Both the position numbers and the translations under genes were made by a program. Below, piece by piece: positions 9,321 through 60,305 of a DNA stretch of 64,000 bases. The stretch lies in contig CP136061.1 in the NCBI GenBank assembly GCA_032622095.1, positions 53,393,762 through 53,457,761 on the forward strand, written 5' to 3'. How positions within the stretch are numbered: the first letter of the stretch is position 1; every line of letters begins with the position of its first letter. The DNA comes from Siphonodentalium dalli. Lineage: Eukaryota; Mollusca; Scaphopoda; Gadilida; Siphonodentaliidae. The notes below the pieces were generated by a model that had not been told where the DNA came from, did not search any database, and worked only from the letters and a program-made list of their open reading frames with translations.

Positions 9321-10408
9321 CTCAGCTATCTTGTTGAATAAACTCATCTTTCTTGTTAATCAACTCAGCTATCTTGATGAATCAACTCAGCTATCTTGAT
9401 GAATCAACTCATTTATCTTGATGAATCAACTCATTTATCTTGATGAATCAACACATCTATATTGATGAATCAACTCATTTATCACGATGAATCAACACAT
9501 CTATATTGATGAATCAACACATCTATATTGACGAATCAACACATCTATATTGATGAATCAACACATCTATATTGATGAATCAACACATCTATCTTGACGA
9601 ATCAACACATCTATATTGATGAATCGACTCATTTATCTTGATGAATCAACTCATTTATCTTGATGAATCAACACATCTATATTGATGAATCAACTCATTT
9701 ATCACGATGAATCAACACATCTATATTGATGAATCAACACATCTATATTGACGAATCAACACATCTATATTGATGAATCAACACATCTATATTGATGAAT
9801 CAACTCATTTATCACGATGAATCAACACATCTATATTGATGAATCAACACATCTATCTTGATGAATCAACACATCTATCTTGATGAATCAACTCATCTAT
9901 CTTGATTTTTCAACTCTATCTTGGTGAATCAACTCGGCTGTCTTGATGAAGCAACTCATCTACCTTGATAAATCAACTCATTTATCTTGTTGAATCAACT
10001 CAGATATCTTGATGATTCAACTCGGCTGTCTTGATCAACCAACTCATCTATTTTGATAAATCAACTCAACTATCTTGATGAATAAACTCAGCTATCTTGT
10101 TGAATAAACTCATCTTTCTTGTTAATCAACTCAGCTATCTTGGTGAACCAACTCAGCTATCTTGATGAGTCAACGCAGATATCTTGTTGAATCAACTCAG
10201 CTATCTTGGTGAATCAACTCAGCTATCTTGATGAGTCAACTCAGATATCTTGATGAATCAACTCAGCTATCTTGCTGAATCAACTCAGATATCTTGTTGA
10301 ATCAACTCAGCTATCTTGTTGAATCAACTCAGCTATCTTGGTGAATCAACTCAGCTATCTTGATGAGTCAACTCAGATATCTTGTTGAATCAACTCAGCT
10401 ATCTTGGT
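9321..10408 (+). repeat. Diverged satellite block D2
   Basis: This is the second copy of the D block, starting with the TTGTTGAATAAAC variant at 9331, which is 6205 bases (about 282 monomers) after the D1 marker. It runs through the same order of CACGATGAATC and TTGACGAATC variants and ends in GCTATCTTGGTGAATC and GATGAGTCAAC monomers before ordinary monomers resume near 10410. Confidence 0.8.
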
Positions 10409-13400
10409 GAATCAACTCATCTATCTTGATGAATCAACTCATCTATCTTGATGAATCAACTCAGCTATCTTGATGAATCAACTCATCTATCTTGATGAAT
10501 CAACTCATCTATCTTGATGAATCAACTCATCTATCTTGATGAATCAACTCATCTATATTGATGAATCAACTCAGATATATTGATGAATCAACTCATCTAT
10601 ATTGATGAATCAACTCAGATATATTGATGAATCAACTCATCTATATTGATGAATCAACTCATCTATATTGATGAATCAACTCATCTATCTTGATGAATCA
10701 ACACATATATCTTGATGAATCAACACATCTATCTTGATGAATCAACTCATCTATCTTGATGAATCAACTCATCTATCTTGATGAATCAACTCATCTATCT
10801 TGATGAATCAACTCATCTATATTGATGAATCAACTCAGATATATTGATGAATCAACTCATCTATATTGATGAATCAACTCAGATATATTGATGAATCAAC
10901 TCATCTATATTGATGAATCAACTCATCTATATTGATGAATCAACTCATCTATCTTGATGAATCAACTCAACTATCTTGATGAATCAACTCAGATATATTG
11001 ATGAATCAACTCAGATATATTGATGAATCAACTCATCTATATTGATGAATCAACTCATCTATATTGATGAATCAACTCATCTATATTGATGAATCAACTC
11101 ATTTATCTTGATGAATCAACTCATCTATCTTGATGAATCAACTCATCTATCTTGATGAATCAACTCATCTATCTTGATGAATCAACTCATCTATCTTGAT
11201 GAATCAACTCATCTATCTTGATGAATCAACTCATCTATCTTGATGAATCAACTCATCTATCTTGATGAATCAACTCATCTATCTTGATGAATCAACTCAG
11301 CTATCTTGATGAATCAACTCATCTATCTTGATGAATCAACTCATCTATATTGATGAATCAACTCATCTATATTGATGAATCAACTCATCTATATTGATGA
11401 ATCAACTCAGATATATTGATGAATCAACTCATCTATATTGATGAATCAACTCATCTATATTGATGAATCAACTCATCTATCTTGATGAATCAACTAATCT
11501 ATATTGATGAATCAACTCATCTATCTTGATGAATCAACACATCTATATTGATGAATCAACTCATCTATATTGATGAATCAACTCAGATATATTGATGAAT
11601 CAACTCATCTATATTGATGAATCAACTCATCTATATTGATGAATCAACTCATCTATATTGATGAATCAACTCATCTATCTTGATGAATCAACTCATCTAT
11701 CTTGATGAATCAACTCATCTATATTGATGAATCAACTCATCTATATTGATGAATCAACACATCTATCTTGATGAATCAACACATCTATCTTGATGAATCA
11801 ACACATCTATCTTGATGAATCAACACATCTATCTTGATGAATCAACTCATCTATCTTGATGAATCAACTCATCTATCTTGATGAATCAACTCATCTATCT
11901 TGATGAATCAACTCATCTATCTTGATGAATCAACTCAGATATATTGATGAATCAACTCATCTATATTGATGGAATCAACTCATCTATATTGATGAAACAA
12001 CTCATCTATCTTGATGAATCAACTCATCTATCTTGATGAATCAACTCATCTATCTTGATGAATGAACTCATCTATATTGATGAATCAACTCATCTATCTT
12101 GATGAATCAACTCATCTATCTTGATGAATCAACTCAGATATATTGATGAATCAACTCATCTATCTTGATGAATCAACTCAGATATATTGATGAAACAACT
12201 CATCTATTTTGATGAATCAACTCATCTATCTTGATGAATCAACTCAGCTATCTTGATGAATCAACTCATCTATCTTGATGAATCAACTCATCTATATTGA
12301 TGAATCAACTCAGATATATTGATGAATCAACTCATCTATATTGATGAATCAACTCATCTATATTGATGAATCAACTCATCTATCTTGATGAATCAACTCA
12401 TCTATCTTGATGAATAAACTCATCTATCTTGATGAATCAACTCAGATATATTGATGAATCAACTCATCTATATTGATGAATCAACTCATCTATATTGATG
12501 AATCAACTCATCTATCTTGATGAATCAACTCATCTATCTTGATGAATCAACTCATCTATCTTGATGAATCAACTCATCTCAGCTATCTTGATGAATCAAC
12601 TCATCTATATTGATGAATCAACACATCTATCTTGATGAATCAACTCATCTATCTTGATGAATCAACTCATCTATATTGATGAATCAACTCATCTATCTTG
12701 ATGAATCAACTCATATATCTTGATGAATCAACTCATCTATATTGATGAATCAACTCAGATATATTGATGAATCAACACATCTATCTTAATGAATCAACTC
12801 ATCTATCTTGATGAATCAACTCATCTATCTTGATGAATCACCTCATCTATCTTGATGAATCAACTCATCTATCTTGATGAATCAACTCAGATATATTGAT
12901 GAATCAACTCATCTATCTTGATGAATCAACTCATCTATATTGATGAATCAACACATCTATCTTGATGAATCAACTCATCTATCTTGATGAATCAACTCAT
13001 CTATCTTGATGAATCAACTCATCTATATTGATGAATCAACACATCTATCTTGATGAATCAACTCATCTATCTTGATGAATCAACTCATCTATCTTGATGA
13101 ATCAACTCATCTATCTTGATGAATCAACACATCTATCTTGATGAATCAACTCATCTATATATTGATGAATCAACTCATCTATATTGATGAATCAACTCAT
13201 TTATCTTGATGAATCAACACATCTATCTTGATGAATCAACTCATCTATCTTGATGAATCAACTCATCTATATTGATGAATCAACACATCTATCTTGATGA
13301 ATCAACACATCTATCTTGATGAATCAACACATCTATCTTGATGAATCAACACATCTATCTTGATGAATCAACTCATCTATCTTGATGAATCAACTCATCT

Positions 13401-16400
13401 ATCTTGATGAATCAACTCATCTATCTTGATGAATCAACTCATCTATCTTGATGAATCAACTCAGATATATTGATGAATCAACTCATCTATATTGATGGAA
13501 TCAACTCATCTATATTGATGAAACAACTCATCTATCTTGATGAATCAACTCATCTATCTTGATGAATCAACTCATCTATCTTGATGAATGAACTCATCTA
13601 TATTGATGAATCAACTCATCTATCTTGATGAATCAACTCATCTATCTTGATGAATCAACTCAGATATATTGATGAATCAACTCATCTATCTTGATGAATC
13701 AACTCAGATATATTGATGAAACAACTCATCTATCTTGATGAATCAACACATCTATCTTGATGAATCAACTCATCTATCTTGATGAATCAACTCATCTATC
13801 TTGATGAATCAACTCATCTATCTTGATGAATCAACACATCTATCTTGATGAATCAACTCATCTATATATTGATGAATCAACTCATCTATATTGATGAATC
13901 AACTCATCTATCTTGATGAATCAACTCATCTATCTTGATGAATCAACTCATCTATATTGATGAATCAACTCATCTATATTGATGAATCAACACATCTATC
14001 TTGATGAATCAACACATCTATCTTGATGAATCAACACATCTATCTTGATGAATCAACACATCTATCTTGATGAATCAACTCATCTATCTTGATGAATCAA
14101 CTCATCTATCTTGATGAATCAACTCATCTATCTTGATGAATCAACACATCTATCTTGATGAATCAACTCATCTATATATTGATGAATCAACTCATCTATA
14201 TTGATGAATCAACTCATCTATCTTGATGAATCAACTCATCTATCTTGATGAATCAACTCATCTATATTGATGAATCAACTCATCTATATTGATGAATCAA
14301 CACATCTATCTTGATGAATCAACACATCTATCTTGATGAATCAACACATCTATCTTGATGAATCAACACATCTATCTTGATGAATCAACTCATCTATCTT
14401 GATGAATCAACTCATCTATCTTGATGAATCAACACATCTATCTTGATGAATCAACTCATCTATCTTGATGAATCAACTCATCTATCTTGATGAATCAACT
14501 CATCTATCTTGATGAATCAACACATCTATCTTGATGAATCAACTCATCTATATATTGATGAATCAACTCATCTATATTGATGAATCAACTCATCTATCTT
14601 GATGAATCAACTCATCTATCTTGATGAATCAACTCATCTATATTGATGAATCAACTCATCTATATTGATGAATCAACACATCTATCTTGATGAATCAACA
14701 CATCTATCTTGATGAATCAACACATCTATCTTGATGAATCAACACATCTATCTTGATGAATCAACTCATCTATCTTGATGAATCAACTCATCTATCTTGA
14801 TGAATCAACTCATCTATCTTGATGAATCAACTCATCTATCTTGATGAATCAACTCAGATATATTGATGAATCAACTCATCTATATTGATGGAATCAACTC
14901 ATCTATATTGATGAAACAACTCATCTATCTTGATGAATCAACTCATCTATCTTGATGAATCAACTCATCTATCTTGATGAATGAACTCATCTATATTGAT
15001 GAATCAACTCATCTATCTTGATGAATCAACTCATCTATCTTGATGAATCAACTCAGATATATTGATGAATCAACTCATCTATCTTGATGAATCAACTCAG
15101 ATATATTGATGAAACAACTCATCTATTTTGATGAATCAACTCATCTATCTTGATGAATCAACTCAGCTATCTTGATGAATCAACTCATCTATCTTGATGA
15201 ATCAACTCATCTATATTGATGAATCAACTCAGATATATTGATGAATCAACTCATCTATATTGATGAATCAACTCATCTATATTGATGAATCAACTCATCT
15301 ATCTTGATGAATCAACTCATCTATCTTGATGAATAAACTCATCTATCTTGATGAATCAACTCAGATATATTGATGAATCAACTCATCTATATTGATGAAT
15401 CAACTCATCTATATTGATGAATCAACTCATCTATCTTGATGAATCAACTCATCTATCTTGATGAATCAACTCATCTATCTTGATGAATCAACTCATCTAT
15501 ATTGATGAATCAACTCAGCTATCTTGATGAATCACCTCATCTATATTGATGAATCAACTCATCTATCTTGATGAATCAACTCAGCTATCTTGATGAATCA
15601 ACTCATCTATATTGATGAATCAACACATCTATCTTGATGAATCAACTCATCTATCTTGATGAATCAACTCATCTATATTGATGAATCAACTCATCTATCT
15701 TGATGAATCAACTCATATATCTTGATGAATCAACTCATCTATATTGATGAATCAACTCAGATATATTGATGAATCAACACATCTATCTTAATGAATCAAC
15801 TCATCTATCTTGATGAATCAACTCATCTATCTTGATGAATCACCTCATCTATCTTGATGAATCAACTCATCTATCTTGATGAATCAACTCAGATATATTG
15901 ATGAATCAACTCATCTATCTTGATGAATCAACTCATCTATATTGATGAATCAACACATCTATCTTGATGAATCAACTCATCTATCTTGATGAATCAACTC
16001 ATCTATCTTGATGAATCAACTCATCTATATTGATGAATCAACACATCTATCTTGATGAATCAACTCATCTATCTTGATGAATCAACTCATCTATCTTGAT
16101 GAATCAACTCATCTATCTTGATGAATCAACACATCTATCTTGATGAATCAACTCATCTATATATTGATGAATCAACTCATCTATATTGATGAATCAACTC
16201 ATTTATCTTGATGAATCAACACATCTATCTTGATGAATCAACTCATCTATCTTGATGAATCAACACATCTATCTTGATGAATCAACACATCTATCTTGAT
16301 GAATCAACTCATTTATCTTGATGAATCAACACATCTATCTTGATGAATCAACTCATCTATATTGATGAATCAACTCATCTATCTTGATGAATCAACTCAT

Positions 16401-16725
16401 CTATCTTGATGAATCAACTCATCTATCTTGATGAATCAACTCATTTATCTTGATGAATCAACTCATTTATCTTGATGAATCAACTCATCTATCTTGATGA
16501 ATCAACACATCTATCTTGATGAATCAACTCATCTATCTTGATGAATCAACTCATCTATATTGATGAATCAACACATCTATATTGATGCATCAACACATCT
16601 ATCTTGATGAATCAACTCATCTATCTTGATGAATCAACTCATCTATCTTGATGAATCAACACATCTATATTGATGCATCAACACATCTATCTTGATGAAT
16701 CAACTCATCTATCTTGATGAATCAA

Positions 16726-18297
16726 CTCAGCTATCTTGTTGAATAAACTCATCTTTCTTGTTAATCAACTCAGCTATCTTGATGAATCAACTCAGCTATC
16801 TTGATGAATCAACTCATTTATCTTGATGAATCAACTCATTTATCTTGATGAATCAACACATCTATATTGATGAATCAACTCATTTATCACGATGAATCAA
16901 CACATCTATATTGATGAATCAACACATCTATATTGACGAATCAACACATCTTTATTGATGAATCAACACATCTATATTGATGAATCAACACATCTATCTT
17001 GACGAATCAACACATCTATCTTGATGAATCGACTCATTTAACTTGATGAATCAACTCATTTATCTTGATGAATCAACACATCTATATTGATGAATCAACT
17101 CATTTATCACGATGAATCAACACATCTATATTGATGAATCAACACATCTATATTGACGAATCAACACATCTATATTGATGAATCAACTCATTTATCACGA
17201 TGAATCAACACATCTATATTGATGAATCAACACATCTATATTGATGAATCAACACATCTATCTTGATGAATCAACACATCTATCTTGATTATTCAACTCA
17301 TGCAGCTATCTTGGTGAATCAACTCGGCTGTCTTGATGAAGCAACTCATCTACCTTGATAAATCAACTCATTTATCTTGTTGAATCAACTCAGATATCTT
17401 GATGATTCAACTCGGCTGTCTTGATCAACCAACTCATCTATCTTGATAAATCAACTCAACTATCTTGATGAATCAACTCAGCTATCTTGTTGAATACACT
17501 CATCTTTCTTGTTAATCAACTCAGCTATCTTGGTGAACCAACTCAGCTATCTTGATGAGTCAACGCAGATATCTTGTTGAATCAACTCAGCTATCTTGGT
17601 GAATCAACTCAGCTATCTTGATGAGTCAACTCAGATATCTTGATGAATCAACTCAGCTATCTTGCTGAATCAACTCAGATATCTTGTTGAATCAACTCAG
17701 CTATCTTGTTGAATCAACTCAGCTATCTTGGTGAATCAACTCAGCTATCTTGATGAGTCAACTCAGATATCTTGTTGAATCAACTCAGCTATCTTGGTGA
17801 ATCAACTCAACTATCTTGATGAATCAACTCAGCTATCTTGTTGAATCAACTCATCTATCTTGTTGAATCAACTCAGCTATCTTGGTGAATCAACTCAGCT
17901 ATCTTGATGAGTCAACTCAGCTATCTTGATGAATCAACTCAACTGTCTTGATGAATCGACCCAGCTTTGATGAATCAACTCGGCTGTCTTGGTGAATCAA
18001 CTCAGCTGTCTTGGTGAATCAACTCAGCTTTGATGAATCAACTCAGCTGTCTTGATGAATCAACTCAGCTGTCTTGATGAATCAACTCAGCTGTTTTGAT
18101 GAATTAACTCAGCTATCTTGATGAATCGACTCAGCTATCTTGATGAATCAACTCAGCTATCTTGATGAATCGACTCAGCTATCTTGATGAATCAACTCAG
18201 CTGGTTTCATGAATCAACTCAGCTATCTTGGTGAATCAACTCAGTTATATTGATGAATCAACTCAGCTATCTTGATGAATCAACTCAGCTATCTTGC
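16726..18297 (+). repeat. Diverged satellite block D3 and degenerate right edge
   Basis: This third copy of the D block (marker at 16736) runs directly into the right edge of the array. From about 17930 monomers become increasingly irregular (GCTGTCTTGGTG, shortened AGCTTTGATG units, GTTTCATG) and the periodicity ends near 18297. Decay toward the edge is expected for a satellite homogenised from within. Confidence 0.8.
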
Positions 18298-19011: not shown

Positions 19012-19170
19012 TTAACCCTTTCAGTGCCAAGTTCGATTTTTGTATCAACCCATATTTCCTCTAAGAGCTCTTTCCATCAATGTATCACATTATTATAATC
19101 AGTAAATTTGAAAAATGATCAAGGAAATATGGGTTGATACAAAAATCGGACTTGGCACTGAAAGGGTTAA
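19012..19170. mobile_element. TTAA-flanked palindromic MITE, piggyBac-like (copy 1)
   Basis: The element at 19016-19166 is bounded by TTAA on both sides. Its termini are inverted repeats beginning CCCTTTCAGTGCCAAG and ending in the complement; the arms extend about 47 bases through the complementary pieces ATATGGGTTGATAC and GTATCAACCCATAT. TTAA targets and CCC/GGG termini are characteristic of piggyBac-type elements. At 151 bases it is shorter than copy 2 at 34290 because part of the left inner arm is missing. It cannot encode a transposase. Confidence 0.8.
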
Positions 19171-19239
19171 AACAATAAATATGATTATGACAAAGCGTTG
19201 ACGCGTGTCGTATCATTTCGCTGTGTGAATAGTCTAAAC

Positions 19240-20085: not shown

Positions 20086-20216
20086 TAGATGCGTGTTTAT
20101 TGCCTCAAACCCTAGACTCCCTTATATGACAAATGACAAGATGGTTATTTAACTTAAAGATTGTCTATCTCTTCCGAGCCACAATAACAACCACAACATA
20201 AGTTTTATAAATCCCA

Positions 20217-21180
20217 ATATCTAGTCTACAAATAGCTATTTTGTGAATAAAATATAGATACACCTGAAGATTTGGTATATTATTTGTCTATAAAGGCATG
20301 ATGAAGTGGTTTATTTCGATTAAGATCGTTGTGAAATCTATGGTCGAAATGATTGAGGGTGATAACAAGATATAATTTTCCCTCTTGGTATGAGTTTGGT
20401 ACAATGGGAACGTTTATGTCCTAAAGCGTTTCGACCCTAAATGATTATATTTCTTTTATTTGCGAATCTACACTTAAAAAACAAATTGCTTCCGGAATTT
20501 CAACTTGATGTGTGGCATTTACCTCAGAAGTGGACAAACCTCCCATTCAAGCATCTCATTCTGATTTATTATATGTATTGCCTTCCAGAGCACAACAAAA
20601 ACAAAAATAGAAAACAAATCAAGTGTACCATTATATTTTACAGCCAACATACAAGTACTAAGAATAGATATTATATTGGAACTTGTCAATCATACCAAAC
20701 ATTCATAATATAGTGACATATTTTAAATACAAATTTTCTCTCAGCCAAGAAACAACCTCAAGTCTGATCATTTCTGGAAGGCACTACACATTATATATCA
20801 TAACTTATCACCATGTAAATACGTTTGTATCGTCATCTTGATCACATGTGTGTTATTATATTGTGTCAGGAGAGGGGCTTCATAAGTTGCAAAAACTTGT
20901 GCCCCAATCCATTTTGTATATGTTTTATGCAAATATAATATGTTACAAGTCAAGTCAAGTCAATTTTTATGTTCTAAAATGATAGCCCCTAAAGCTGTCC
21001 CGCGGATGTGATAATCAAAACGAAATACAAATGTTACTAATTGATAAAAACTTTTCCGGACAGATGTCCTCAATGCATATTTATTATGTTACACCCCGTT
21101 TATATCTTAGGTCAGGGACAACAATATTTCAACGAAAGCTGTCACTAGTTTGAACCGCGTGCCTATTTATTCCAGAGAAT
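20217..21180. repeat. Dispersed duplicate, copy 1 (related to 28440-28870)
   Basis: Sequence at 20228-20420 (GAATAAAATATAGATACA, TTATTTGTCTATA, ATTGAGGGTG) and 20970-21130 (CTTTTCCGGACAG, TGTCCTC, TTATATCTTAGGTCAG) matches 28440-28870 in the same order and orientation. About 540 bases (20420-20965) are present only in this copy. A weaker third relative lies at 47860-47990. No coding potential is recognisable; what was duplicated is unknown. Confidence 0.65.
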
Positions 21181-21394
21181 GTGAAGACAATTCAAATACA
21201 AATGGTTTATTTCGGTGAATACCTTCATTCAGCAGAGAATAGATATACGGAAGATGTGAAAAAAACAGCCTGACTTAATTCTTTGCGCGGATACCATATA
21301 TATATCTGTATTAACCTCCATTATTGGAGAGCATACATCAATACATTGTACATGTTGTATAAACGAATTGGGGCGTTTTGTACACACAAAGGTG

Positions 21395-22440
21395 AGCAAG
21401 GTGATGTGGTATTTACACATAGTGTATAGTATATATACAAACAATATGAGCATGGACAATGGGGGGGGGGGGGGGGGGCAAAAGTAACAAAACTGAATTC
21501 CGCTAAATCTCAGCAGTATAGACTCTGTGTCATTTTTGAGTTTGAGCAGATTTAAATCTGGAAAGTGTATATCGGATGCGTACATGTTAATGTAAACAAG
21601 CCTTGCTTTTCTGACGGACAGCATGCACACGCAGACAGTCGGATATAATCTTAACGGGATTAATGACATTGCACACAATGACATATACTGTGTGCACATC
21701 GAAGGTGGCATCAGCCCTGTGTAGATAGTCGGTTAATAAGGAACTGGGAGTAATGTGCGTTGTCAAATGAGAGCTACTCTCATTGGCAGAACATAATTTT
21801 GAAAAACGATTTGAACGCGGTCGGTGAGAGCGAAGCTAGAGCTATACGCATGTCTACATAACCTACAGCTATACCCTTACACGAGTACTCGCGTTTACAG
21901 AAACTTCGGAAAATCCTACATACACTCAGAAAACCTGGGGATTTCCCCATCTCCACATTGTCCATCTTGTGACGAGTGTTTGACCCAGTTACCAAACAAC
22001 ATAATCGTAAACGCGTTTTAGCCAATCGGAAAGCGCATGGGTGTAAACTGTGACCTCGTGTGTCTTATTGAGTGAGTCGCATGAACCGCATTTACTTTCG
22101 TTTACAAGCACGCTGTTTTATTTATATTTATGCAATATACTATATTAATGTTCTGGCACCGTTGACTGACAGTTTTAGAACATATGTAAACCTATTTGTA
22201 TTGGCTTGTCTCGACGTCAAATGACGTAAGCATTGTCAGTATTTGACGTATATGTTAATTGTTCAACTCCGCGAACATTAGTGACTAATGGAATTGTTGT
22301 TTAACTAGTCGTGATTGAATAATTGCCAAAACGCACACCTAACCTTCAGTTGGACATTTAGGAACGACGAACAGTCAGTTCTTCCGCCGTTTTGGCCACT
22401 GTTTATATCGAAAGAGTACAGCTCTAAATATAAGACTATA
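21395..22440. repeat. Dispersed duplicate, copy 1, with the uninterrupted insertion site
   Basis: This stretch matches 30045-30099 joined to 32116-33300. Shared landmarks include the ATACAAACAATAT run, the poly-G tract (21462-21478 and near 32158), AGCAGATTTAAATCT, GCATGCACACGCAG, GCACATCGAAGGTGGCAT, and a 60-base identical run (22272-22331 and 33004-33063). The A^T at 21426/21427 corresponds exactly to where Helitron-like DNA interrupts copy 2. ORFs in the two copies are not conserved, so this is probably not coding sequence. Confidence 0.85.
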
Positions 22441-23650: not shown

Positions 23651-24624
23651 GTATTATTATCCATCCCTTAACTAACACTTTTTCTGATTAGGCAAAAGCT
23701 ATCACAAGATAATCCTGGAAAAAGTCATATTGGACACCCGAAACTCATATTGGACTCAATCCGAGTCCAATATGACTTTTTAATCGGGAAATGAATCGGT
23801 GAAATTGTGATGCGCGCGCAAAACTGGTGGATTTAGCAGACGCTTCACTTCCGCATTGGGTACATATTTAATATAGATTTAGGAAGATTGATTGACATCC
23901 ATATAGCCCAAAAATGGCACGTGGTAGGCTTATGTTAATTGATTTATTTGTTGAAGGTATTTCCGTGCACTTGTATTCATGTACACAGCGCATTTCGAAT
24001 CGGTAAAAGTCTGTTTCTAGGCGTCATATCAACATGTTAGTTTACAAAAAAATCTATGTTTTCCCCGGATATATATACTTCCAGAACGCATCCTATTTCC
24101 CATACTTAAACATAAAATAGGATGTGTTCTAGTAGTATATATATATATACGACAGAAAATTATTTTTATGCTAACATAACACCACATTTTGGTGTCACGT
24201 GACCAACAAACACAATTTTACCGATTCGAAATGTGCTGTGTGCATGAATACACATGAAAATGTCATAGGTGCTGTTCCGGAAGTATGCCTATATCTTTTC
24301 ACTTCCGTGTTTACTATTCCACATCATGATTTCTGATGATCAAATATAGGCTTTAATAGAGAATCAAGTGCCGACAAATAGCAAAAGTAACCACAAAAGT
24401 TTTATTTCCAAAATTTGGATAAACATACAGATGGATAATAAAAATGTCATTATACAATGTTGTGTACAGTATGCATTTTTCTTTTGTACTCGTCCATGTT
24501 GTGATGCCAAGTCATATTGGACTCGACAATGCGCGTTTCGTCCAATATGACTTTTCACCACAACCTGGACTCGTACAAGAAAAACACATACTGTACACAA
24601 CATTGTATAATAACTTTATAATAC
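23651..24624 (+). mobile_element. Foldback element family F, long copy
   Basis: Both ends and the order of internal segments match 43606-44170 read on the other strand (shared: CATCCCTTAACTAACAC, GCAGACG(C/T)TTCACTTCCG, GTGCCGA(C/T)AAATA, AAACATACAGATGGATAA). It contains stem-loops whose arms share the motif AGTCATATTGGAC: one at 23720-23790 and a long hairpin at about 24445-24612 (ATACAATGTTGTGTACAG against its complement). Relative to the other copy it carries about 438 extra bases (23858-24295). No ORF is conserved between copies, so this is a non-coding element. Confidence 0.8.
23858..24295. mobile_element. Nested inverted-repeat insertion inside element F
   Basis: This segment is absent from the shorter F copy at 43606-44170, where the flanking CACTTCCGCATTG and TTTTCACTTCCGTG are close together. 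It has its own inverted arms (23974-24008 with 24215-24254, through ATTTCGAATCGGTAAAA) and an inner hairpin at 24081-24131 (AGAACGCATCCTATTT against AAAATAGGATGTGTTCT). The edges could shift a few bases because CACTTCCG occurs at both sides. Alternatively the shorter copy lost it by deletion. Confidence 0.65.
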
Positions 24625-25029
24625 ATCCATGTCGTTCAATCATTTTTAATGCATTTTTTTTTTATCTTTTCGCACCTTCAACATTAAGCCTTGTGACAAA
24701 TGAGAAATATTCGTAATATTAAAGTCTTTAATCAATTTGTATTCCACAGTAGGAATCTTGAAACAGTATAATGAAAATAAATTGAACACAACAAGAATGA
24801 CGTTGCAATCGGTCGAAAGGCTCCATCACTGGATACCATACATATACTAAATGGCCTGCCGCAACCGCCCACAAGCGGAAGTTGCCCAGCATCCTGGACT
24901 GTGAAGAGGAACATATATCCAGCCTAAGTTGCTGAGTATAATGAACTTGTGCATATTATCTACAAGTCTGGGTAGACTATATATACCAATACACTTGTAA
25001 TATTATTTATTAATATACTAATGACATTA

Positions 25030-27499: not shown

Positions 27500-28439
27500 A
27501 ACCCTGGTCAGATTCACTAAGTATGCTATGACACTTAATCTCCTGTTACTAGATATCTATTACTATTATTACTCTACTATTATTTCTTGATCTACATGTA
27601 GAATTATGTAGATACTAAATGACATACAGTCATTATCGGGTTTAAAACCTATATTCGACCAAAAGTGCAGAAATCTTTCGAATAAATCTCATGTATAGAA
27701 TCGTAACAGTCGTGATTGGCTTGAAGTAGAACCGTAACACACGCGTTGTGATTATGAGGCTAAATTGTAGTGCTCCAAATTATCAACCATTATCGGGATA
27801 TTTTCTCAGAAGAATAACACAGTTAATACTTTAAACTCAGTGTTTGGTCCACACTATATGTGCCCCCAAACACAAATGAATTATGTTTACATGGCTTGAT
27901 TTTCAGTGATTACATGTTGATAATTACACGATAACTCTATATTTCGGAGTTAATTGTGATCTAAAGTTAAGTGTTCGGTAAAACGGCATTTCTGCAGTCT
28001 ATGTTCAATCAGGAATGTTGCATGCATTCAAGATATATATAATTCTGCGTGATTTTGTCCCGAAATGTTTTATTTTTTGTCATAAGAGACCGCAAAATAT
28101 TCCAGAACCACCACAAATCAGGCTCCGAATTAGTTATTTCGTGGCCACGAAAAAAAAAACCAATTCGAGAATATCTGAGTTGGAATTAATCTCCAGTGCG
28201 GGAAAGTTATTGTTTGCCCGATCAAAGACACAGCCACGCTAAGCTCAAGAGCAGAAGCCATAGATAGACAAGGCCTCGAGATAATAATGAAATAACCAAC
28301 AAAGCTCCTGTTTGTTATGCATTCCATCAGCGTATGGTAATTTATATGTGGAGTTATCTTCGCAATCGCCGGTTCGGCCTCTAATAGCATGGATAAGTGA
28401 CCGGATATGAGACATATATGATCCGATCCGATTCCAGAC
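27500..28439. other. Low-copy DNA
   Basis: Only short ORFs are present (75 codons plus at 28015, 103 codons minus ending at 28130). Neither shows a recognisable domain, and neither has matched splice signals that I could find. Confidence 0.4.
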
Positions 28440-28870
28440 ATCTATATCTAGACTAGATATTTTTGAATAAAATATAGATACAACTGATTATTGTGTATGT
28501 TATTTGTCTATAGAGCCATGATAATGTGTTTTTTTTTCGATCGTACCATCGTTATGAAATATACAGTCAAATTGAGAAATAAATGAGGGTGCGAACAGGA
28601 TACATGATTGAGGGTGCGAACAAGATATAGTTCTCCTTCTTGGAACGTTTTCGCGCGGATTTATGTTCTATCAATAGCCCATAAAAATGTCCCATGGGTG
28701 TGATAAGAAATTCTAAATAAATTATGTATTTAATTGATAGAATCTTTTCCGGACAGGTGTCCTCGATTCACATTTATTATTCTATATCACAGAAAATATA
28801 TAACACTTTCTGGGAAGAGATAGACCTTCTTTAATCGACACAAGAGTATATCTTTGGTCAGTCATTATTT
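28440..28870. repeat. Dispersed duplicate, copy 2 (related to 20217-21180)
   Basis: This stretch is collinear with 20228-20420 and 20970-21130 (GAATAAAATATAGATACAAC, TGAGGGTGCGAACA, CTTTTCCGGACAGGTGTCCTC). It lacks the ~540 bases found only in the other copy and has an internal duplication of the GAGGGTGCGAACA segment at 28587-28624. Confidence 0.65.
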
Positions 28871-29905: not shown

Positions 29906-30099
29906 ATAAATTGACTGACATTTCCACTATATAGTCCTGAGATCCTAGAATAAGCTTTACATTTGTGTTTGTGCGATTGTGAGATGCAGTTCACGTGCGA
30001 TCACAAGACCACAACATTAACTTCATGGGCAAAGCTTTATTTTCCAACTAATTGGTGCGTAAGCAAGCTTAGTGGTGTGGTATTTTTACACACAGTATA

Positions 30100-30623
30100 T
30101 CTCATATATATTTTGAAGACCTCTGTCTGTCTGTATGTCCTTTATAGAATCGAAAACGGGTTGACCGATCGAGACCAAACTTCCCATCTAAAGGTAAAAT
30201 CCCACGGGAATCGTCGACGTCGCATTTTGGACAAGCTCTGAGCACCGATTATCCACTCCCAATCATCAAAATCACCGCAAACGCCACTTCGGGGGTTAAG
30301 GCATTAACGATCTTTATATTGACCATATTCGGAGGTGTTAAGGATTAACGCTCATCAACCAGGCGGTCGTCGTTGTCGTATTGGCGAGCCCGTGCGACAC
30401 CCGTGCAGCGCATGCGCAGACGAGATCTCGGAAACGGGTGGAGCTATCGACTTGAAATTTGCTATGTGAATGTATCTTGCCCCGGATACGAATTTTATCG
30501 GGTCGCCGAGCCCGTGCGACACCAGCTTCGCGCATGCGCAGACCAGATCTCGGAAACGGGTGGAGCTATCGACTTGAAATTTGGTTTTTGAATAGCCCGG
30601 ACAACGTCGGGCTCATCGGCTAG
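30100..30623 (+). mobile_element. Helitron-like element, type A (E1)
   Basis: The left end is TCTCATATATATTTTGAAG with a (TCTG)n-like run just inside; the right end is a stem-loop at 30595-30612 (GCCC, bulged G, GAC, loop AAC, GTC, GGGC) followed by TCATCGG and CTAG (30620-30623). A 5' TC, a 3' hairpin about ten bases before CTAG, and insertion between A and T are the defining features of Helitrons. The interior holds two 122-bp repeats centred on GCGCATGCGC (30408 and 30530). There is no Rep/helicase coding region, so it is non-autonomous. The left border is confirmed by the uninterrupted paralogous site at 21426/21427. Confidence 0.85.
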
Positions 30624-32115
30624 TCTATTATATATTTTGGAAGATCTGTTTGTTTGTGTGTTTGTTTGTGTGTAATCGATGGACTCGAAAATGGCCCAGC
30701 CGATTTCGATTAAACTTGGTATGTGGGGGTATTTTCGGGTCAGGACCAACATAGGCCTATTAATTTGTCCGTGCGAGGTCAACTTTTCACGTGCCGAGGT
30801 CAAATCTGTTTTTACGCCGTTTTGCGCTAATATATTTCAGTTCGGTGCTTACAAATCGATTCGAAACAGCGCGAATAATAACATGCCAGTCATAATAATG
30901 ACACTATGAGAATCTTTCGTGTTTCCTCTTTCCAACGATATATAATATGTATGTATCCGTTTTAGTTATCTGCCTCAATTATTAAGAAGAAGTGGTACGA
31001 TCTTCTATCAGGGTAAAAACAATGCGTAACTTCTATGACGTCGTTAGAGGTCATAAAGTTAGATCACGTTAACTCTTAACAGGCCGATGCATTTGACTGT
31101 TTCAGACGTCTTGGCAATATCTCGGGCACCGATGGTAATTTATCTTTACGTTGAAACTTGAGGCGCGTTTATATACTTCAGTGGAAATCAAATTGGGTTA
31201 AACTGGCGGATTTTTACGGACGAAATTTGATGCATAGGGTATCTCGGTATCCGCTGGGCCGATTTCCCGGTATCCGCTGGGCCGATTTCCACCATTTTTG
31301 GCTGAGCCAATTTCGATGAAACTTGGTATGTGGGGGTATTTTCGGGCCACGAGTAACATAGGCCTATTAATTTGTCCGCGCGAGGTCAACTTCTCACGTG
31401 CCGAGGTCAAATCTGTTTTTACGCTGTGTTACAGGACTTTCATTTGAGTTCGGTGCTTACAAATCGATTCGAAACAGCGCGAATAATAACATGCCAGTCA
31501 TAATAATGACACTATGAGAATCTTTCGTGTTTCCTCTTTCCAACGATATATAATATGTATGTATCCGTTTTAGTTATCTGCCTCAATTATTAAGAAGAAG
31601 TGGTACGATCTTCTATCAGGGTAAAAACAATGCGTAACTTCTATGACGTCGTTAGAGGTCATACAGTTAGATCACGTTAACTCTTGACCGGCCGATGCAT
31701 TTGACTGTTTCAGACGGTAATTTATCTTTACGTTGAAACTTGATAATTAATGAGCGTGTGTATATGAGGCGCGTTTATATACTTCAGTGGAAATCAAATC
31801 GGGTTAAACTGGCGGATTTTTACGGACGAAATTTGATGCATAGGGTATCTCGGTATCCGCTGGGCCGATTTCCCGGTATCCGCTGGGCCGATTTCCACCA
31901 TTTTTGGGGTGTTGGTCCACCTGACCTTGACCATCAAAGTGGTCAATTCAAGGTCAAATCGGGTAAAACCGGATGGATTTCGACGGGTACTTTTGTCGGG
32001 TACTTTTGTTCGGGCACTGTGTTTTGGACGGGTCAAATCGTGACCCCACTTGACCTTGGCCTTCAAAATAGACAATTCAAGGTCAAAGCCCGGACGAAGT
32101 CGGGTCACCTTCTAG
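30624..32115 (+). mobile_element. Helitron-like element, type B (E2), joined to E1
   Basis: It starts TCTATTATATATTTTGG immediately after the CTAG of E1 and ends with the stem-loop CCCGGACGAAGTCGGG (32089-32104), then TCACCTT and CTAG (32112-32115), with T following. Inside is a tandem duplication of about 607 bases: for example ACAAATCGATTCGAAACAGC at 30851 and 31459, and GTGGAAATCA at 31181 and 31787. The 177-codon ORF at 31740-32273 runs across the element's right end into the flank, so it is not a genuine gene. No transposase is present. Confidence 0.85.
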
Positions 32116-33300
32116 TAGTATATATATACAAACAATATTATATTAGCATAGCAAATGGGGGGGGGGGGGAAGTAACAAAACTGAATTCCGCTAGATCACA
32201 GCCGTATTGTAGGAGTTCGAGCAGATTTAAATCTAGAAAGTGTATATCGCATGCGTATGAGTTTGGATCGTAACTACATTCACTAAGTCATGCTCCTTTT
32301 CGTCCTTAAGACATGTTAATGTCAACAAGACTTGCTTTTCTGACGGCAGCATGCACACGCAGGCAGTCGGGTATAGTCTTAATGGAATTTATTGACATTG
32401 CCACCTCATATATACTGTGTGCACATCGAAGGTGGCATCTGCCCCACGTAAATAGTCGGTTAATACGGAACTGGGGATAATTTGTGTGGTCAAATGAGAG
32501 CTGTATTCAATAGAAGAACATAAATTTGAAACACGATTGGAACGCGGTTGGTAAGAGCTATGGAGTTATACGCATGTCTACATAACAGTTATATCCTTAA
32601 GCGTACGTGCACTCCTTTACAGAGAATTCGGAAAATCCTATATACACCCCGAAAACCTGGGGATTTCCCCATATCCACATAGCCCATCGTGTGTAAAAAG
32701 TGAAACGCGTTTTAGCCTATTGGAAGCGCATGGGTGTAAACTGTGATCTCGTGTGGCTTACTGACTTGACACAACGTGACGCATATAAGTTGCATGAACC
32801 GCACTTACTCCCGTCAACATGCAAGCTGTTTTTATTAATATTTGTATTTGTGCAATATACTATATGTTATTGTTCTGGAACTGTTGACTGACAGTTTTAG
32901 AACACATGTATGTAAACCTATTTCTAATGGCTTGTCTCGACGGCAAATGAGAATCCCGTAAACATTGCCGGTATTGGTCATATGTGTTAATTGTTCAAAT
33001 CCACGAACATTAGTGACTAATGGAATTGTTGTTTAACTAGTCGTGATTGAATAATTGCCAAAAACATCTTGTCTGTGACACGGCTGGGCAGCATAACGAA
33101 TAGCAATTATTTAGTGATGAGACGAGGCGCATTGATCTTTTGAACCACACGAATTGAAAGCTGATCAATCCTGTGCGTTTAGCAACGCACACCTAACCTT
33201 CAATTATACATTTTGGCGCGATCGAACAGTCAGTCTGCCAATTCTTCCGCCGTTTTGGCCACTGTTTATATCGACAGAGTATACAGCCCTATATAACTAC

Positions 33301-34193: not shown

Positions 34194-34285
34194 CTAAGAG
34201 TAGGCCATTTGAGAATTAGAGCGCATGGTAAACACACCAATTCAAGATTTTATGGAAGTACCGATATACCTTCCTCCTGATTAAT

Positions 34286-34498
34286 TTAACCCTTTCAGTG
34301 TCAAGTCCGATTTTTGTATCAACCCATATTTCCTTGATCGTTTTTCAAATTTATTGATTATAATAATGTGATACATTGATGTAAAGAGCTCAGAGCTCTT
34401 TCCATCAATGCATCACATTATTTAATCAATACATTTGAAAAATGATCAAGTAAATATGAGTTGAGAAAAAAAATCGGACTTGGCACTGAAAGGGTTAA
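34286..34498. mobile_element. TTAA-flanked palindromic MITE, piggyBac-like (copy 2, full length)
   Basis: The element at 34290-34494 is bounded by TTAA and starts CCCTTTCAGTGTCAAG, ending in the near-complement. Its two halves are complementary almost throughout (ATTATAATAATGTGATACAT against ATG(C)ATCACATTATTTAAT, and AAGAGCTC beside AGAGCTCTT at the centre), so the 205-base element can fold into a single hairpin. It is the complete version of copy 1 at 19016. Confidence 0.85.
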
Positions 34499-34554
34499 AC
34501 ACGTGTTTTAACGACGGGAGCTTGGCTGGTGGTGCAGCATTAAAAATCCTGTGC

Positions 34555-35460: not shown

Positions 35461-35491
<31 letters not shown>

Positions 35492-38403
35492 GTTCTATAG
35501 AAATTCACAGGTGATCACCTAGATGGCATAAAAAGGTCTAATAGGGGTCACTTTTTACGAGAAAGATAATGGCGAGGGTTAGAATTTTCTAAAGTGACGC
35601 CGTTGTTGTCAGGGGCAGAAAAGGGGGAGGGGCAGAAAAAATGTCGCAGTTTGCCACCAAACTTATATATAATCATCCCCATAATATAAGGAATCTAATG
35701 GTGTGGTTTAAATATATCAAAAGTCGCGCCGTTCGCGTCAGGGGTGCCCGGAAGGGGAGAGGGGCACCAAAATTGATCAAAATAATTTTAGCGCCGAATT
35801 CCACCAAATTGATAAACATTCTTCTTAGATCTTCTCCATAATAAAATGAATCTTATTGTGCGATTTAAAGACGCCAAATTGGTGTCGTTGGGATCAGATA
35901 TTTGGGGGGGGGGGATGGTGGGTACTATTTTGACAAGAATTGGTTTAGTCGCTGATTGCAGCGAAACTTATACAAATTCATCCCCATGGTATGAGGTGTC
36001 TAATGGCGTGGCTTAAAGCTGTCAAAAGTGGCGTCATTCGAGTCAGGGGATTGATACACAATATTTTTAGCGCTAATTTCCACCAAATTGATACACATTC
36101 TTATCCATGATATGAGGAATCTAATCGTGTGATTTTAAAGACGTCATATTGGTGCTGCTTTGGTGAGAGATGGGGGTGGGGTGGGCACTAAATTTGATAA
36201 AAAATTGTTTAGTCGTGGATTAGCACCAAACTTACAAATAATAAGCTCCGTGATATCAGGAGTCTAAGTATGTGGTTTAAAGAAGTCAAACGTGGGGCCA
36301 TTCGAGTCAGGAGTGCCCAGAGGGTGAGAGGGACACAAACATTGATAAACAATATGCTTAGCGCCGATTTCCACCTGATTGATACAATTTCTTCTCAGTG
36401 ATACGAATAATCTAATCGTGTGGTTTAAATGCGCCAAATTGGTGCCTTTTGGGTGAGAGATATGCAATGGTCGCCATAAATTTGATACGAATTTGTATAC
36501 TCGCCAATTTTCATAAATTTTATATATATTCATCTCTATAATGAGTCTAAGTATGTGGTTTAATGATGTCAAAAGTGGCGCCGCTTGAGTCCGAAATAGG
36601 GACGGGAGGGTCACCAAAAACTTATAAAAATATGTTTAGTGCCAATTACCATCAAACTCATACACGTTCTTCTCCAATGATACAATGAATCAAATATTTG
36701 CGAATATCTGTCTGTGTTATATATATAACTTTAAGGGTACAGTCGAGATGGCACCAAGGCGGTCTAACAGGGTAACGTTTTACGAGTAAGATAATGGTGG
36801 GGGTTAAAATGTTCTAAAGTGACATTGTTGGTGTCAGGGGAGGGGCTATTGTTAGCACAGATTTCGACCAAATTGATGTATTATTCTTCTCCGTGATACG
36901 AGGAATATAAACGTGTGATTTAAAGACGCGAAAGTGGTGCCGTTTGGGTGAGAGATGGGGGGGGGGGGGGGGTAATAACTATGATACGAATTTGTTTAGT
37001 TGCCTATTACCACCAAACTTATATATAATCATCTCCTTTATATAATGCATGCGTGAGTCTAATAGACGTGGTTTAAATATGACAAAGGTGGCGCGGTTCA
37101 AGTCATGAATGAGGGGAGTTGCACAAAAGTTGATACAAATATATTTAGCACTGATTCTACCAAATTCATGCACGTTCTTCTCTAATGATATGCTGAATTA
37201 AATCACATTTTGGGTCGTTTGGGTCATGGATGGCGAGAGGAGATTCACTAGCATTTATAAGATTGTTCAATTCGCCAATTGTTCAATATCCAACAAAGTT
37301 ATATGTAGTCATATCCCAGACCATCTCCATGTCGTTCTAATGAGTTTTTGGCATTCCAATTTCACAATCTTGAAAAATGGTGACCGAATTAAGTCACTTG
37401 ATCAATTATATCTTCTCAACTGTTATATTTATATGGGGATGGAAATCAGGGCATTCCTATAACGATCTAGCAACACAGATACACAGAAGAAAGAATTAAA
37501 AGTATATTTATATCAATCTATTTAAGAGATACATATATTCATTCAAACTGAGGGACCTTGAATCGTCAGAGGATTGCATATTATAATGGCTCATGTATAT
37601 ATTATAACACGATTGAGTCTGTCCCATTCAATATAGTTTCCACAAAAAAGGTTAGAATTGCCAAGTGATATGGAAATGTAGAGCAGGCCTGTTAAAAAAT
37701 AGTGGTCACAGTGTGCAGTCAAATATGGTTACTTCTGAGATAAAGGAAAACGCAGTCCGTAGCACATGACTTTTCAGGATCCTCCAATATTGACATCTGA
37801 AATAGGTATATCTGCCCGATTAAGAGGATTTCTTTCATATTTTAGAACAGACTCATCGCCTAACATAAACAACTCAAAATCTCACCGTGTCGGGCACATG
37901 TAGCTGCTATACGTGCATAACATCAATTCTTTTAAACTGAAAATGATTAGCCAGTATATAGCACCAGAACAGAGGAGCACCTGGACATATATTTAAAACA
38001 TCTGTATCTTCATGAAGATATGATAAACTAGATTGATTGAATGATTGATACATCTCTGTGTAAAACACAATTGTCATCTTTTATTTTTTCGAACTAATGT
38101 GTTTATGATGTTCATGTTTCATGCTATAACGTCTGAAGTATACGCAGTTGTAAATAAATAAATACTTCTTTATGGGACGGATTTAAACGCGATAAACAAA
38201 ATGATAATCGCTTCGACCTGACAAGGTGATCCACTACTTATATTCCATGTGTAAGAATCATGTTTTGTGATGCCATTTGGATATACAATTTTAGAGAATA
38301 CGTGTAGCACGTTGAGAGCAAGAGTATATTCTCTATTCCCACCAAATATCCACAGAGGGTTTCACATCACTTTAACCTGGGCAACGCCGGGTAACCCTGC
38401 TAG
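35447..38403 (+). mobile_element. Large Helitron-like element (E7)
   Basis: The left end is A then TCTATATTTGCGAATG, leading into a (TCTG)n run (35463-35490). The right end has a stem-loop at 38376-38391 (CCTGGGCAACGCCGGG, with a bulged G as in the smaller elements), then TAACCCTG and CTAG (38400-38403) followed by T. The A^T flanks fit Helitron targeting. The left half (35447-37200) is a tandem array and the right half (37200-38375) looks unique. It has no transposase ORF, so it is non-autonomous. There is no uninterrupted control site here, so borders rest on the terminal motifs. Confidence 0.65.
35600..37200. repeat. ~280-bp degenerate tandem array inside E7
   Basis: Segments such as TTAGCGCCGA(A/T)TTCCACC recur near 35787, 36068, 36357 and 36633. 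Between them a second half-unit containing GTGTGGTTTAAA and GAGTCAGG(G/A)GTGCCC alternates, so the unit is a dimer of ~140-bp halves. The head of the element (TTTGCGAATxTCTGTCTG, then a GATGGCA segment) recurs at 36690-36800. G-rich runs (35908-35918, 36958-36971) fall at equivalent points. Confidence 0.7.
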
Positions 38404-40454: not shown

Positions 40455-40487
40455 TTAACCCTTTACCCAACAGAAGGGCCCTGTGCC

Positions 40488-40553
40488 AATGCATTCTCTT
40501 ATATATGCGAGTCGACCATATGTCGCCTCGCATATATAAGAGAATGCATTGGC
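40488..40553. repeat. Hairpin module, copy 1
   Basis: CCAATGCATTCTCTTATATA at the left pairs with TATATAAGAGAATGCATTGG at the right. The near-palindrome is about 66 bases, centred on CGACCATATGTCG, with a few mismatches near the tip. It is preceded by CCCTGTG, the complement of the CACAGGG that follows the other copies. Confidence 0.85.
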
Positions 40554-40620
40554 TTAACACATTAAAAATTATAAAATTGTTAAAGAATGTAAAAAGTGTT
40601 AAAAAAAAGATTTTTTTAGG

Positions 40621-40687
40621 CCAATGCATTCTCTTATATATGCGAGGCGACCTATGGTCGACTCGCATATATAAGAGAATGCATTGG
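40621..40687. repeat. Hairpin module, copy 2
   Basis: This is the same module in opposite orientation to copy 1, with centre CGACCTATGGTCG and a single mismatch in each arm near the tip. CACAGGG follows at 40688-40696. Confidence 0.85.
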
Positions 40688-40841
40688 CACAGGGCATAAC
40701 TGTAACTATCACAATGTGGTCAAGGAGCCGGTTCCAATGATATCCATATTTGTATGGTTCTATTGAGACAGACCGAAGATATTTTAGGCTGTTGAAGCTT
40801 TATTTGGCCGGTTTTGGCCGGTTTGTTGGGTAAAGGGTTAT

Positions 40842-43340: not shown

Positions 43341-43605
43341 CGAATTGACAGGACGTCATTGTCATGTCAGTGTCTTCTATATAGGCAGCATGCTTCGATT
43401 CAAGGGCAAGTCGGTATATATCGCTAATCGTTTCGTGCCAATTTTCACTCGACGAAAAAACTCAACTTTATTAAATATTTCCATCATAAATCCACAAGCG
43501 TAATTTAAAATGAGATATATTCCGAAATCGTCGTCATCTTGATTGCATGTCTCTTGGTAGAGATCCCGTTCCTAATGGGTGATATTTTGAGATCCTGGGT
43601 ACTAT

Positions 43606-44170
43606 ATTATAAAGTTATTATACAATGTTGTGTACAGTATGTGTTTTTCTTGTACGGGTCCAGGTTGTGGTGAAAAGTCATACGCAGTGTCGATTCCAAT
43701 ATGACTTTTCACCACAACCTGGACGAGTACAAGAAAACTCATACTGTACACATTGTATAATGACATTTTTATTATCCATCTGTATGTTTATCCATATTTT
43801 GGGAATAAAACTTTTGTGGTTATTTTTGGTATTTATCGGCACTTAATTCTCTGCAAATTTAAAGCCTGTATTTTGATCATCAAAAAGCATGATTTGGACC
43901 AGTAAACACGGAAGTGAAAACAAAACTCAATGCGGAAGTGAAACGTCTGCTAAATTCACCAGTGTTGCGCGCTCATCACAATTTCACCGATTCATTTCGC
44001 AATAGAGTTAATTCGTGACGGCACAGAGTCCCGATAAAAAAGTCATATTGCACATTTAGGAGTCCAATGTGACATTCGGGAGTCAAATATGACTTTTTCC
44101 CGGATTATCACGTGGCGGATTTTGCCCAATCAGAAATAGTGTTAGTTAAGGGATGGATAATAATAATAAT
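43606..44170 (-). mobile_element. Foldback element family F, short copy (inverted)
   Basis: Read on the minus strand this matches 23651-24624 end to end except for the ~438-base insertion there. It includes the hairpin at 43617-43760 (ATACAATG(TTG)TGTACAGTATG arms) and the AGTCATATTGGA-like motifs at 43674-43706 and 44040-44097. It ends about 110 bases beyond the stop codon of the GPCR gene. The 73-codon ORF at 43625-43846 has a close mirror in the other copy but comes from the hairpin and is not considered a gene. Confidence 0.8.
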
Positions 44171-44279: not shown

Positions 44280-45398
44280 TCACACAGCGGTGTTTGGACT
44301 CCGGTAGTATCTACCTGTATATCTAAATAACACCGGAATACACAGATGAGTTCCACGTCGGAAACAGTTCAAAGTTAAAGCGAACACGAAATACTTCAAA
44401 ACAAAATAAAATTTTGACAGCCCACTGAATAAGTTCAGCAACGACGGAACCACTTGATTGGTCATTGGATTCGGTGGGTCAAAGGTCACTTGTACTCTCA
44501 TCACCGACTCTGGCAACGTCAATACTAGAGATAAAATTATCAGCACGAGAGTACATGTCGTAACTTCCTTCTTGTCTAATAAAGACGTGATACTCAAAAC
44601 TGGTGACCCGTTGTTGCCGTTCAAAGGGACAGTTACATTGTTGGTGCTCGTGTCCGAATATCGAGTCTGTTCACACAATGACGTCACACAATGGCGCCAC
44701 GCGATACATAACACGAGAATTATACACATAAATTTGGGGATGATAAGAGAGAATACTATGTCGACCTTTCGCATTATCAGTATGTCACCCAAAGTTTCGG
44801 GAATGATCACGCAGAATGACCTTTCGCCATACTTTATGACTCCGCTGGTCCATGTCCGATATAAGTAGGCCACGAGAGAAAGGTACGTAAACGTTATTAC
44901 GCCGCATTTAACTCTGAACAAGGAGAAATACTTCTTATTCGACTCATAGAAGAACAAAGCGGTTGTCCTTTCAACGAGGATCAAAACCAGAAACCACTCC
45001 TCCAAGAACAGCGTCAAGAAATTACAGTAGTATACAATCTGACATATACCGACAACGTTGTAAAGATCGAATCCGTGTCGAGAAATCCAGGGAATAAATC
45101 CCATGAAGAGGTAAATGATATCCACAATGCACAGCGCAGTGAAGACGACGAACAAGGGAAGTAATCGCAAATCTCTTTGCAAGAAAACGCAGACGGCAAG
45201 AATGTTGAGAACTATGCCGACGCAGACGAGAGTTGGGAATCCATATTCGTCGAATTGGGCGGCGATGTTGTTCACTTCCTCCAACCATTCTTCTTGCGGT
45301 GGTGGAAACGGTGGTGGTGGCGGCGGATGGAACCCACTTCCGTTGGTTTGTCCGAGTGGCAGCACTGAGAAGTTCGCTTCATACATGGAGATCATCAT
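44280..45398 (-). CDS. Divergent rhodopsin-like (class A) G-protein-coupled receptor, orphan
   Basis: A 372-codon intronless coding region for a seven-helix receptor at the plasma membrane; ligand unknown. The N-terminus (1-53) has two N-glycosylation sequons (N9, N19) and a Pro-rich run (25-34). Approximate helices: TM1 54-74, TM2 80-103, TM3 116-148, TM4 165-183, TM5 212-235, TM6 278-301, TM7 316-345. Class A landmarks are N65 (1.50), D93 (2.50), C119 (3.25) with C196 in loop 2 for the disulfide, R144 (3.50), P221 (5.50) and P296 (6.50). Departures are strong: DRY is ERT (143-145), the CWxP Trp is replaced (LTLP), and NPxxY appears as KYFVF (335-339). The tail is short with F346-R-R in the helix-8 position and ends T-A-V, a class I PDZ-ligand pattern. 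The start is the first ATG; an in-frame TGA sits two codons upstream, so no N-terminal extension is possible within this exon. Overlapping plus-strand frames are shadows. Peptide or orphan lophotrochozoan receptor is the likeliest class. Confidence 0.85.
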   Translation of the reverse strand: MMISMYEANFSVLPLGQTNGSGFHPPPPPPFPPPQEEWLEEVNNIAAQFDEYGFPTLVCVGIVLNILAVCVFLQRDLRLLPLFVVFTALCIVDIIYLFMGFIPWISRHGFDLYNVVGICQIVYYCNFLTLFLEEWFLVLILVERTTALFFYESNKKYFSLFRVKCGVITFTYLSLVAYLYRTWTSGVIKYGERSFCVIIPETLGDILIMRKVDIVFSLIIPKFMCIILVLCIAWRHCVTSLCEQTRYSDTSTNNVTVPLNGNNGSPVLSITSLLDKKEVTTCTLVLIILSLVLTLPESVMRVQVTFDPPNPMTNQVVPSLLNLFSGLSKFYFVLKYFVFALTLNCFRRGTHLCIPVLFRYTGRYYRSPNTAV

Positions 45399-45480
45399 GC
45401 ATCAACTATGGTTTCATATCTGCTTATAGGTGTCGTTCACGTTCGTGTGATCAAGCGATTGTTGTTCACATTCCACTCAA

Positions 45481-53588: not shown

Positions 53589-54100
53589 TCTCATATATAT
53601 TTTGAAGACCTCTGTCTGTCTGTCTGTCTGTTTGTTTGTCTGTCTGTCATTAATACAAATCTACGATTCTCGACCGATCGGGACGAAACTTGGTATGTGT
53701 GTGTAGTTTGACCAGGCGGTCGTCGTTGTCGTATTGGCGAGCCCGTGCGACGCCCGTGCAGCGCATGCGCAGACGAGATCTCGGAAACGGGTGGAGCTAT
53801 CGACTTGAAATTTGCTATGTGAATGTATCTTGCCCCGGATACGAATTTTATCGGGTCGCCGAGCCCGTGCGACGCCAGCTTCGCGCATGCGCAGACGATA
53901 TCTCGGAAACGGGTGGAGTTATCGACTTGAAATTTGGTTTTTGAATGTATCTTGCCCCGGATACGAATTTTATATCGGGTCGCCGAGCCCGTGCGACGCT
54001 AGCTTCCCGCATGCGCAGACGAGATCTCGGAAACGGGCAGAGCTATCGACTTGAAATTTGGTTTTTGAATAGCCCGGACAACGTCGGGCTCATCGGCTAG
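53589..54100 (+). mobile_element. Helitron-like element, type A (E4)
   Basis: It starts directly after the CTAG of E3 with the same TCTCATATATATTTTG terminus. It contains three 122-124-bp repeats (53761, 53883, 54007) and ends with the hairpin at 54072-54089 and CTAG (54097-54100). Its ORFs arise from the repeats. Confidence 0.85.
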
Positions 54101-60130: not shown

Positions 60131-60305
60131 GTAACGCGGAAAGTCCTGGTTAAAAACATTTTTAAGCGGTATATTCGTGTCCTAATCTCTAGTCCAATTC
60201 GGAATATGCAATAAAATTTTTAGAGCTCTGTACTTATAAAAACAAAAAAAACAAAAAAAACAAAACCTCGGTTTATTCATACTGGTGTATAGTGTGCGCC
60301 TATTT

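Follow-up and report, generated by a model that had tools for sequence, protein, structure and literature searches.

Probable tandem Helitrons of two types at one A^T site in Siphonodentalium dalli, with an uninterrupted paralogue of the site and a second array

Two units arranged head to tail at one A^T site

We analysed a 64-kb stretch of S. dalli DNA (the window) and found that positions 30100-32115 very probably hold canonical Helitrons arranged in tandem at an A^T site. Two units lie there head to tail, E1 (524 bp, type A) and then E2 (1492 bp, type B). The site and its paralogous empty copy comprise the following features, all on the forward strand:

21387-22430, forward strand: paralogous empty site, insertion point 21426/21427
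30060-30099, forward strand: left flank of the filled site, ending with A
30100-30623, forward strand: E1, probable type A non-autonomous Helitron; TCTCATATATATTTTG start, core repeats spaced by 122 bp, hairpin, CTAG end
30180-30348 (limits approximate; ~170 bp), forward strand: stretch of E1 without counterpart in units A1 and A2 of the second array
30596-30623, forward strand: A-type 3' hairpin plus CTAG, internal in the array
30624-32115, forward strand: E2, probable type B non-autonomous Helitron; TCTATTATATATTTTGG start, B-type ends, internal 608-bp tandem duplication, weak hairpin, CTTCTAG end
30692-31301 and 31299-31907, forward strand: ~608-bp segment, two copies inside E2, 91% identical by BLAST
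32089-32115, forward strand: B-type 3' hairpin (weaker) plus CTAG, outer 3' end
32116-33295, forward strand: right flank of the filled site, starting with T; paralogous to 21427-22430

E1 opens with TCTCATATATATTTTGAAG and closes with a hairpin followed by ten bases, the last four of which are CTAG. E2 opens with TCTATTATATATTTTGGAAG and closes with a weaker hairpin followed by eleven bases ending CTTCTAG. The border between the two units is formed by CTAG (30620-30623) directly abutting TC (from 30624). Each of the two units starts with TC and ends with CTAG, in line with the ends given in the original prediction. Both units have a TCTG- or TTTG-rich microsatellite 3' of the 5' motif, and repeats in the middle of the units are spaced by 122 bp in A and by about 130 bp in B. 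The two copies of the 608-bp segment in E2 are 99% identical over two ungapped stretches (275 and 143 nt) and 91% identical over the first 132 bp. Most of this segment has no other match in the window, and it may be captured DNA.

A paralogous empty site

Read directly, the empty copy runs uninterrupted as ...TTTACACATAGTGTA/TAGTATATATAC across 21426/21427, and in the filled copy the left sequence, ...TTTACACACAGTATA, extends to 30099 and the right one, TAGTATATATATAC, resumes at 32116. The left flanks differ by two transitions, as had been noted before; on the right side there is also one extra TA, which had not. Over 845 gap-free columns, the right flanks of the filled and empty copies are identical at 733 (86.7%). 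With its end anchored against the empty copy, the terminal 40 bp of the left flank score 26, a value reached at 0 of 45,272 control positions (best control score 6), the controls being other 40-base positions in ~18400-64000 minus the satellite and the surroundings of both sites. When the empty copy is aligned to the joined flanks, the alignment is continuous through the join with no duplicated target base, in agreement with the predicted absence of a target duplication.

The original prediction also held that the empty site fixes both outer borders to the base. A30099 and T32116 do match the empty copy, but alignment alone leaves a few bases of play because of a TA run at the insertion site. 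In a scan of 961 break-point pairs, the top 15 span 30096-30105 by 32116-32122, and the pair 30099/32116 has a score of 112, the highest being 115. We therefore rejected borders set to the base by alignment alone. The second array (see below) shares both outer ends, which fixes the outer ends of E1-E2 to the base.

The duplicated segment had been placed at about 21395-22440. The paralogy is confirmed, but shorter collinear matches with uneven spacing (20212-20372 to 28433-28602 and 20966-21087 to 28660-28780) suggest that the local duplication extends further. Because E1-E2 is present in one duplicate and absent from the other, the array was most likely inserted after the local duplication. 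This order follows from the absence of the array from the empty copy and not from divergence: the gap-free flank columns differ at 13%, and between the two arrays the B parts differ by 4.7-18.6% and the A parts by 0.7-21%, a clock that does not separate the two events, so dating by divergence was dropped.

A second array with matching outer ends

A second array, absent from the original prediction, lies ~21 kb from the first at 52871-55212. It contains four units in the order A-A-B-B between A and T, and a B-like relic stands farther downstream:

52871-53588, forward strand: A1, first unit
53589-54100, forward strand: A2, second unit
54101-54614, forward strand: B1, third unit, with its own 3' end variant CCACCTGCTAG
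54615-55212, forward strand: B2, last unit, with 3' end CACCTTCTAG as in E2
58897-59296, forward strand: B-like relic standing by itself; it follows an A and has one mismatch in its 5' motif (TTTTATATATATTTTG)

The outer ends of the second array, A/TCTCATATATATTTTG at 52871 and CACCTTCTAG/T at 55212, match those of the first. Both arrays conform to the predicted A^T rule, with A/TC at the outer left border (2/2) and CTAG/T at the outer right border (2/2); all four inner junctions read CTAG/TC. The relic starts at its own A^T with no A unit upstream, and no CTAG or recognisable 3' end was seen within 58897-59296. Within A1, a 47-bp hairpin-bearing unit is duplicated at 53329-53426, giving two hairpins without CTAG; the duplication possibly records slipped or failed termination.

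Terminal motifs and hairpins

The exact 5' motif TCTNNTATATATTTTG occurs six times in the window (both strands), each time within the two arrays; allowing up to two mismatches adds four more, one of which is the B-like relic. The 3' hairpin motif occurs eight times in the window, again only in the arrays. Six copies are followed by CTAG and two lie inside A1 without it, and a search of the window with up to two mismatches gave no further copies. Each of the six units starts with 5'-TC and ends with 3' CTAG (CTRR). No unit standing alone with both ends intact was found in the window.

The 3' hairpin is clear in A and is not above chance in B. All three A units have a 6-bp stem 10 nt from the end (-6.4 kcal/mol), with 4 of 200 shuffles as good, and all three B units have a 4-bp stem 11-12 nt from the end (-3.3 kcal/mol), with 74-77 of 200 shuffles as good. 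A and B have in common the 5' motif and, by local alignment, a weakly related 5' half. These similarities suggest that the two types are branches of a single family and not unrelated.

Subterminal inverted repeats within each of the six units are equalled in 99-433 of 500 shuffles. Between the outer A 5' end and the outer B 3' end, an inverted match is equalled in 3 of 500 shuffles at each array, while among 1345 control windows an equal score is found in 18 (score 10) to 52 (score 9), and the comparison is one of several. The match pairs 30100-30129 with 32061-32069 and 52871-52900 with 55158-55166 (ATTTTGAAG / CTTCAAAAT) and sits 46-54 bp from the outer B 3' end. Without gaps, the inverted match of the E1 and A1 5' ends is 9-10 bp long in each of the three B 3' regions but only 5 bp long in each of the three A 3' regions. 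The match shrinks when gaps are allowed (B 5' ends reach 10 against E2 and A 5' ends 11, with 29 controls reaching 11), and within B1 its motif is not confined to this position.

Probable assignment to canonical Helitrons

The ends, the A^T target and the absence of a target duplication together fit a canonical Helitron, as these characters are described in PMC4778049. The target without duplication is documented by the empty site for the first array and by A and T at the outer borders of the second. We did not file the units as Helentrons or HINEs: the target is A^T at both arrays, versus the TT preferred by HINEs.

Canonical Helitrons depend on a RepHel transposase, encoded in the element or in an autonomous partner. 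The units here are classed as probably non-autonomous because no closed stop-to-stop ORF in 18300-64000 exceeds 373 aa (the list covers ORFs that do not run past the end). Of 89 listed ORFs, 10 were run against Pfam, and none scored above the curated cut-off; Rfam gave nothing at gathering scores. Exact patterns for A, for B and for a unit junction with a B 5' end had 0 matches in viral and prokaryotic contig collections, a result that says little.

Other features of the window

With few long ORFs and an 18-kb satellite, the window has a eukaryotic look. Positions 1-18296 form a single satellite array with a 22-bp unit (CTTGATGAATCAACTCATCTAT; ~831 copies, 92% matches) and strong GC skew. At the other end, 60305-62269 and 62036-64000 form a near-identical tandem duplication with a period of 1731 (99.6% over 1965 bp); it reaches the window end and holds ~294-bp repeats. 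Palindromic repeats lie at 19012-19170, 24430-24627, 34285-34499, 40478-40695 and 43604-43775; some are mutually related (e.g. 19065-19171 with 34285-34391), and they look like short inverted-repeat transposons or remnants of these. A 373-aa ORF at 44280-45401 (reverse strand) has many hydrophobic stretches by eye and no Pfam family above the cut-off. At 35483-37204 lie direct repeats, each some hundreds of bp long and degenerate, that are 67-72% similar.

Origin of the arrays

The original prediction described two different elements occupying one target site as a unit. A and then B do fill one site, and a joint move is possible. With a single empty site, insertion of an A-B composite in one step looks just like two separate insertions at the one AT. 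Our preferred explanation, to which we give an even chance, is that A and B moved together as a composite, and for this we infer both read-through and a joint move. A composite of linked A and B units would most likely have formed elsewhere. Starting from the 5' end of the outer A unit, rolling-circle transfer would then have passed over the inner CTAG and terminated at the CTAG of the outer B unit, with transposase supplied from elsewhere. Read-through and precise end-to-end circles are reported for Helraiser (PMC4778049, PMC5876387).

A comes first and B last at both arrays, an arrangement with a chance of 1/2 x 1/6 = 1/12 for two loci only. The outer units E2 and B2 have one 3' end variant and the inner unit B1 another, and the inverted match of the outer A 5' and B 3' ends, which is weak, also points towards a joint move. 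The A-A-B-B order of the second array leans towards composites as well, and so does the lack, within the window, of any solo unit with both ends intact. Against this, a single composite ancestor predicts equal divergence of A and B, so that the unequal divergence observed counts against a joint move: between the arrays, the A cores differ at 11 (E1-A1) and 7 (E1-A2) of 270 sites and the B ends at 45 (E2-B1) and 33 (E2-B2) of 349 sites (Fisher p 0.00011 and 0.00045). Counting the A leader as well weakens the contrast to p 0.025 and 0.22. Moreover, folding is stronger in the inner A hairpins than in the B hairpins, those at the outer ends included, which is the reverse of a weak inner terminator. 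Together with the solo B-like relic, these points lean against a joint move. The stronger proposal of a stable two-module Helitron, in which A would be the only working start and B the only working stop, the inner A hairpin and CTAG would be bypassed as a rule and the composite would be the real mobile unit, is in our judgement unlikely.

Stepwise stacking is a rival that we hold to be somewhat improbable. B would have inserted first at A^T, and A later at the AT that is kept at the 5' border of the resident Helitron (A from the host, T from the element); arrays would grow 5'-ward only, because the 3' border reads G/T. A^T at both outer left borders and CTAG/TC at every inner junction fit this course, the greater divergence of the B parts than of the A cores is as expected for an older B, and the worn B-like element at 58897, directly preceded by an A, is solitary. 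The four-unit array, however, requires three further hits at the same dinucleotide, stacking requires a targeting bias towards resident ends, and the window holds no intact solo unit with two ends.

Multiplication of units after insertion, by unequal exchange or circle concatemers, would make A-A-B-B an expanded A-B; we consider this quite improbable. The internal tandem repeats of the units invite exchange, and 14 sites of the A leader group A1 with A2 apart from E1, versus 3 for the other two groupings together. In the two A blocks the counts run the other way: block 1 has 7 sites shared by E1 and A2 versus 1 by A1 and A2, and block 2 has 4 shared by E1 and A1 versus 2. For the B ends, agreement of E2 with B2 (27 sites) is roughly as frequent as that of B1 with B2 (24), and E2 agrees with B1 at 9 (two alignments, one margin poorly aligned). 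The counts for A units come from block-wise alignments; a full-length MAFFT alignment was put out of register by the extra stretch in E1. Local growth also leaves the first A-B join unexplained.

That the empty copy reflects a later precise loss, or that the pair is unrelated to Helitrons, is scarcely credible: nothing beyond the few bases of alignment play speaks for it, two loci have identical exact Helitron-like outer ends, and precise excision is not known for Helitrons.

The clean empty site of the two-unit array and the four-unit array with its matching outer ends are together well suited to testing how such arrays arise. If whole composites are transferred, linked units should be of equal age and no allele should carry B alone; if units stack on the 5' side, the unit at the 5' edge should be the youngest. 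Movement of composites would imply that inner terminators are bypassed routinely, with a bearing on how Helitrons come to pick up adjacent DNA.

Comparison with known tandem Helitrons

Helitrons are reported to form tandem arrays in bats and silkworm, presumed to result from bypass of a termination signal, and distantly related Helitrons directly adjoin in bats and maize (PMC4067079). Abutting insertions with empty-site evidence are described in Myotis (PMC4778049), head-to-tail junctions and tandem arrays are mentioned for plants and bats (PMC5876387), and bypass with use of the end of a downstream Helitron has been reported (PMC6431247). The S. dalli arrays resemble those of bats, silkworm and maize (PMC4067079, PMC4778049) in their tandem clustering and adjoining of distantly related units. 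They differ in family and probably in organism, in that two arrays within ~25 kb have a common A...B order, and in that the inner units have complete 3' ends. According to PMC7492417, tandem Helitron copies in inner positions frequently lack part of the 3' end; those here do not.

Units are likewise stacked in fungi, with three Helitrons in tandem in Metarhizium acridum and composite or nested FoHelis, for which stepwise insertion or rolling-circle copying are offered as causes, but these fungal elements have non-canonical termini (PMC5148889). Like the S. dalli units, the Pacific oyster Cg_HINE (PMC7492417) has satellite-like repeats in the centre, a palindrome at the 3' end and a short left-hand module that includes a GTCY-like microsatellite, and it makes no target duplication. 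Cg_HINE, however, prefers TT and has subterminal inverted repeats, whereas the target here is A^T and the ends are TC and CTAG. The E1-E2 array is thus a well-documented further case of known tandem Helitrons and not a new kind of element; new here are the paralogous empty site and the second array with matching outer ends.
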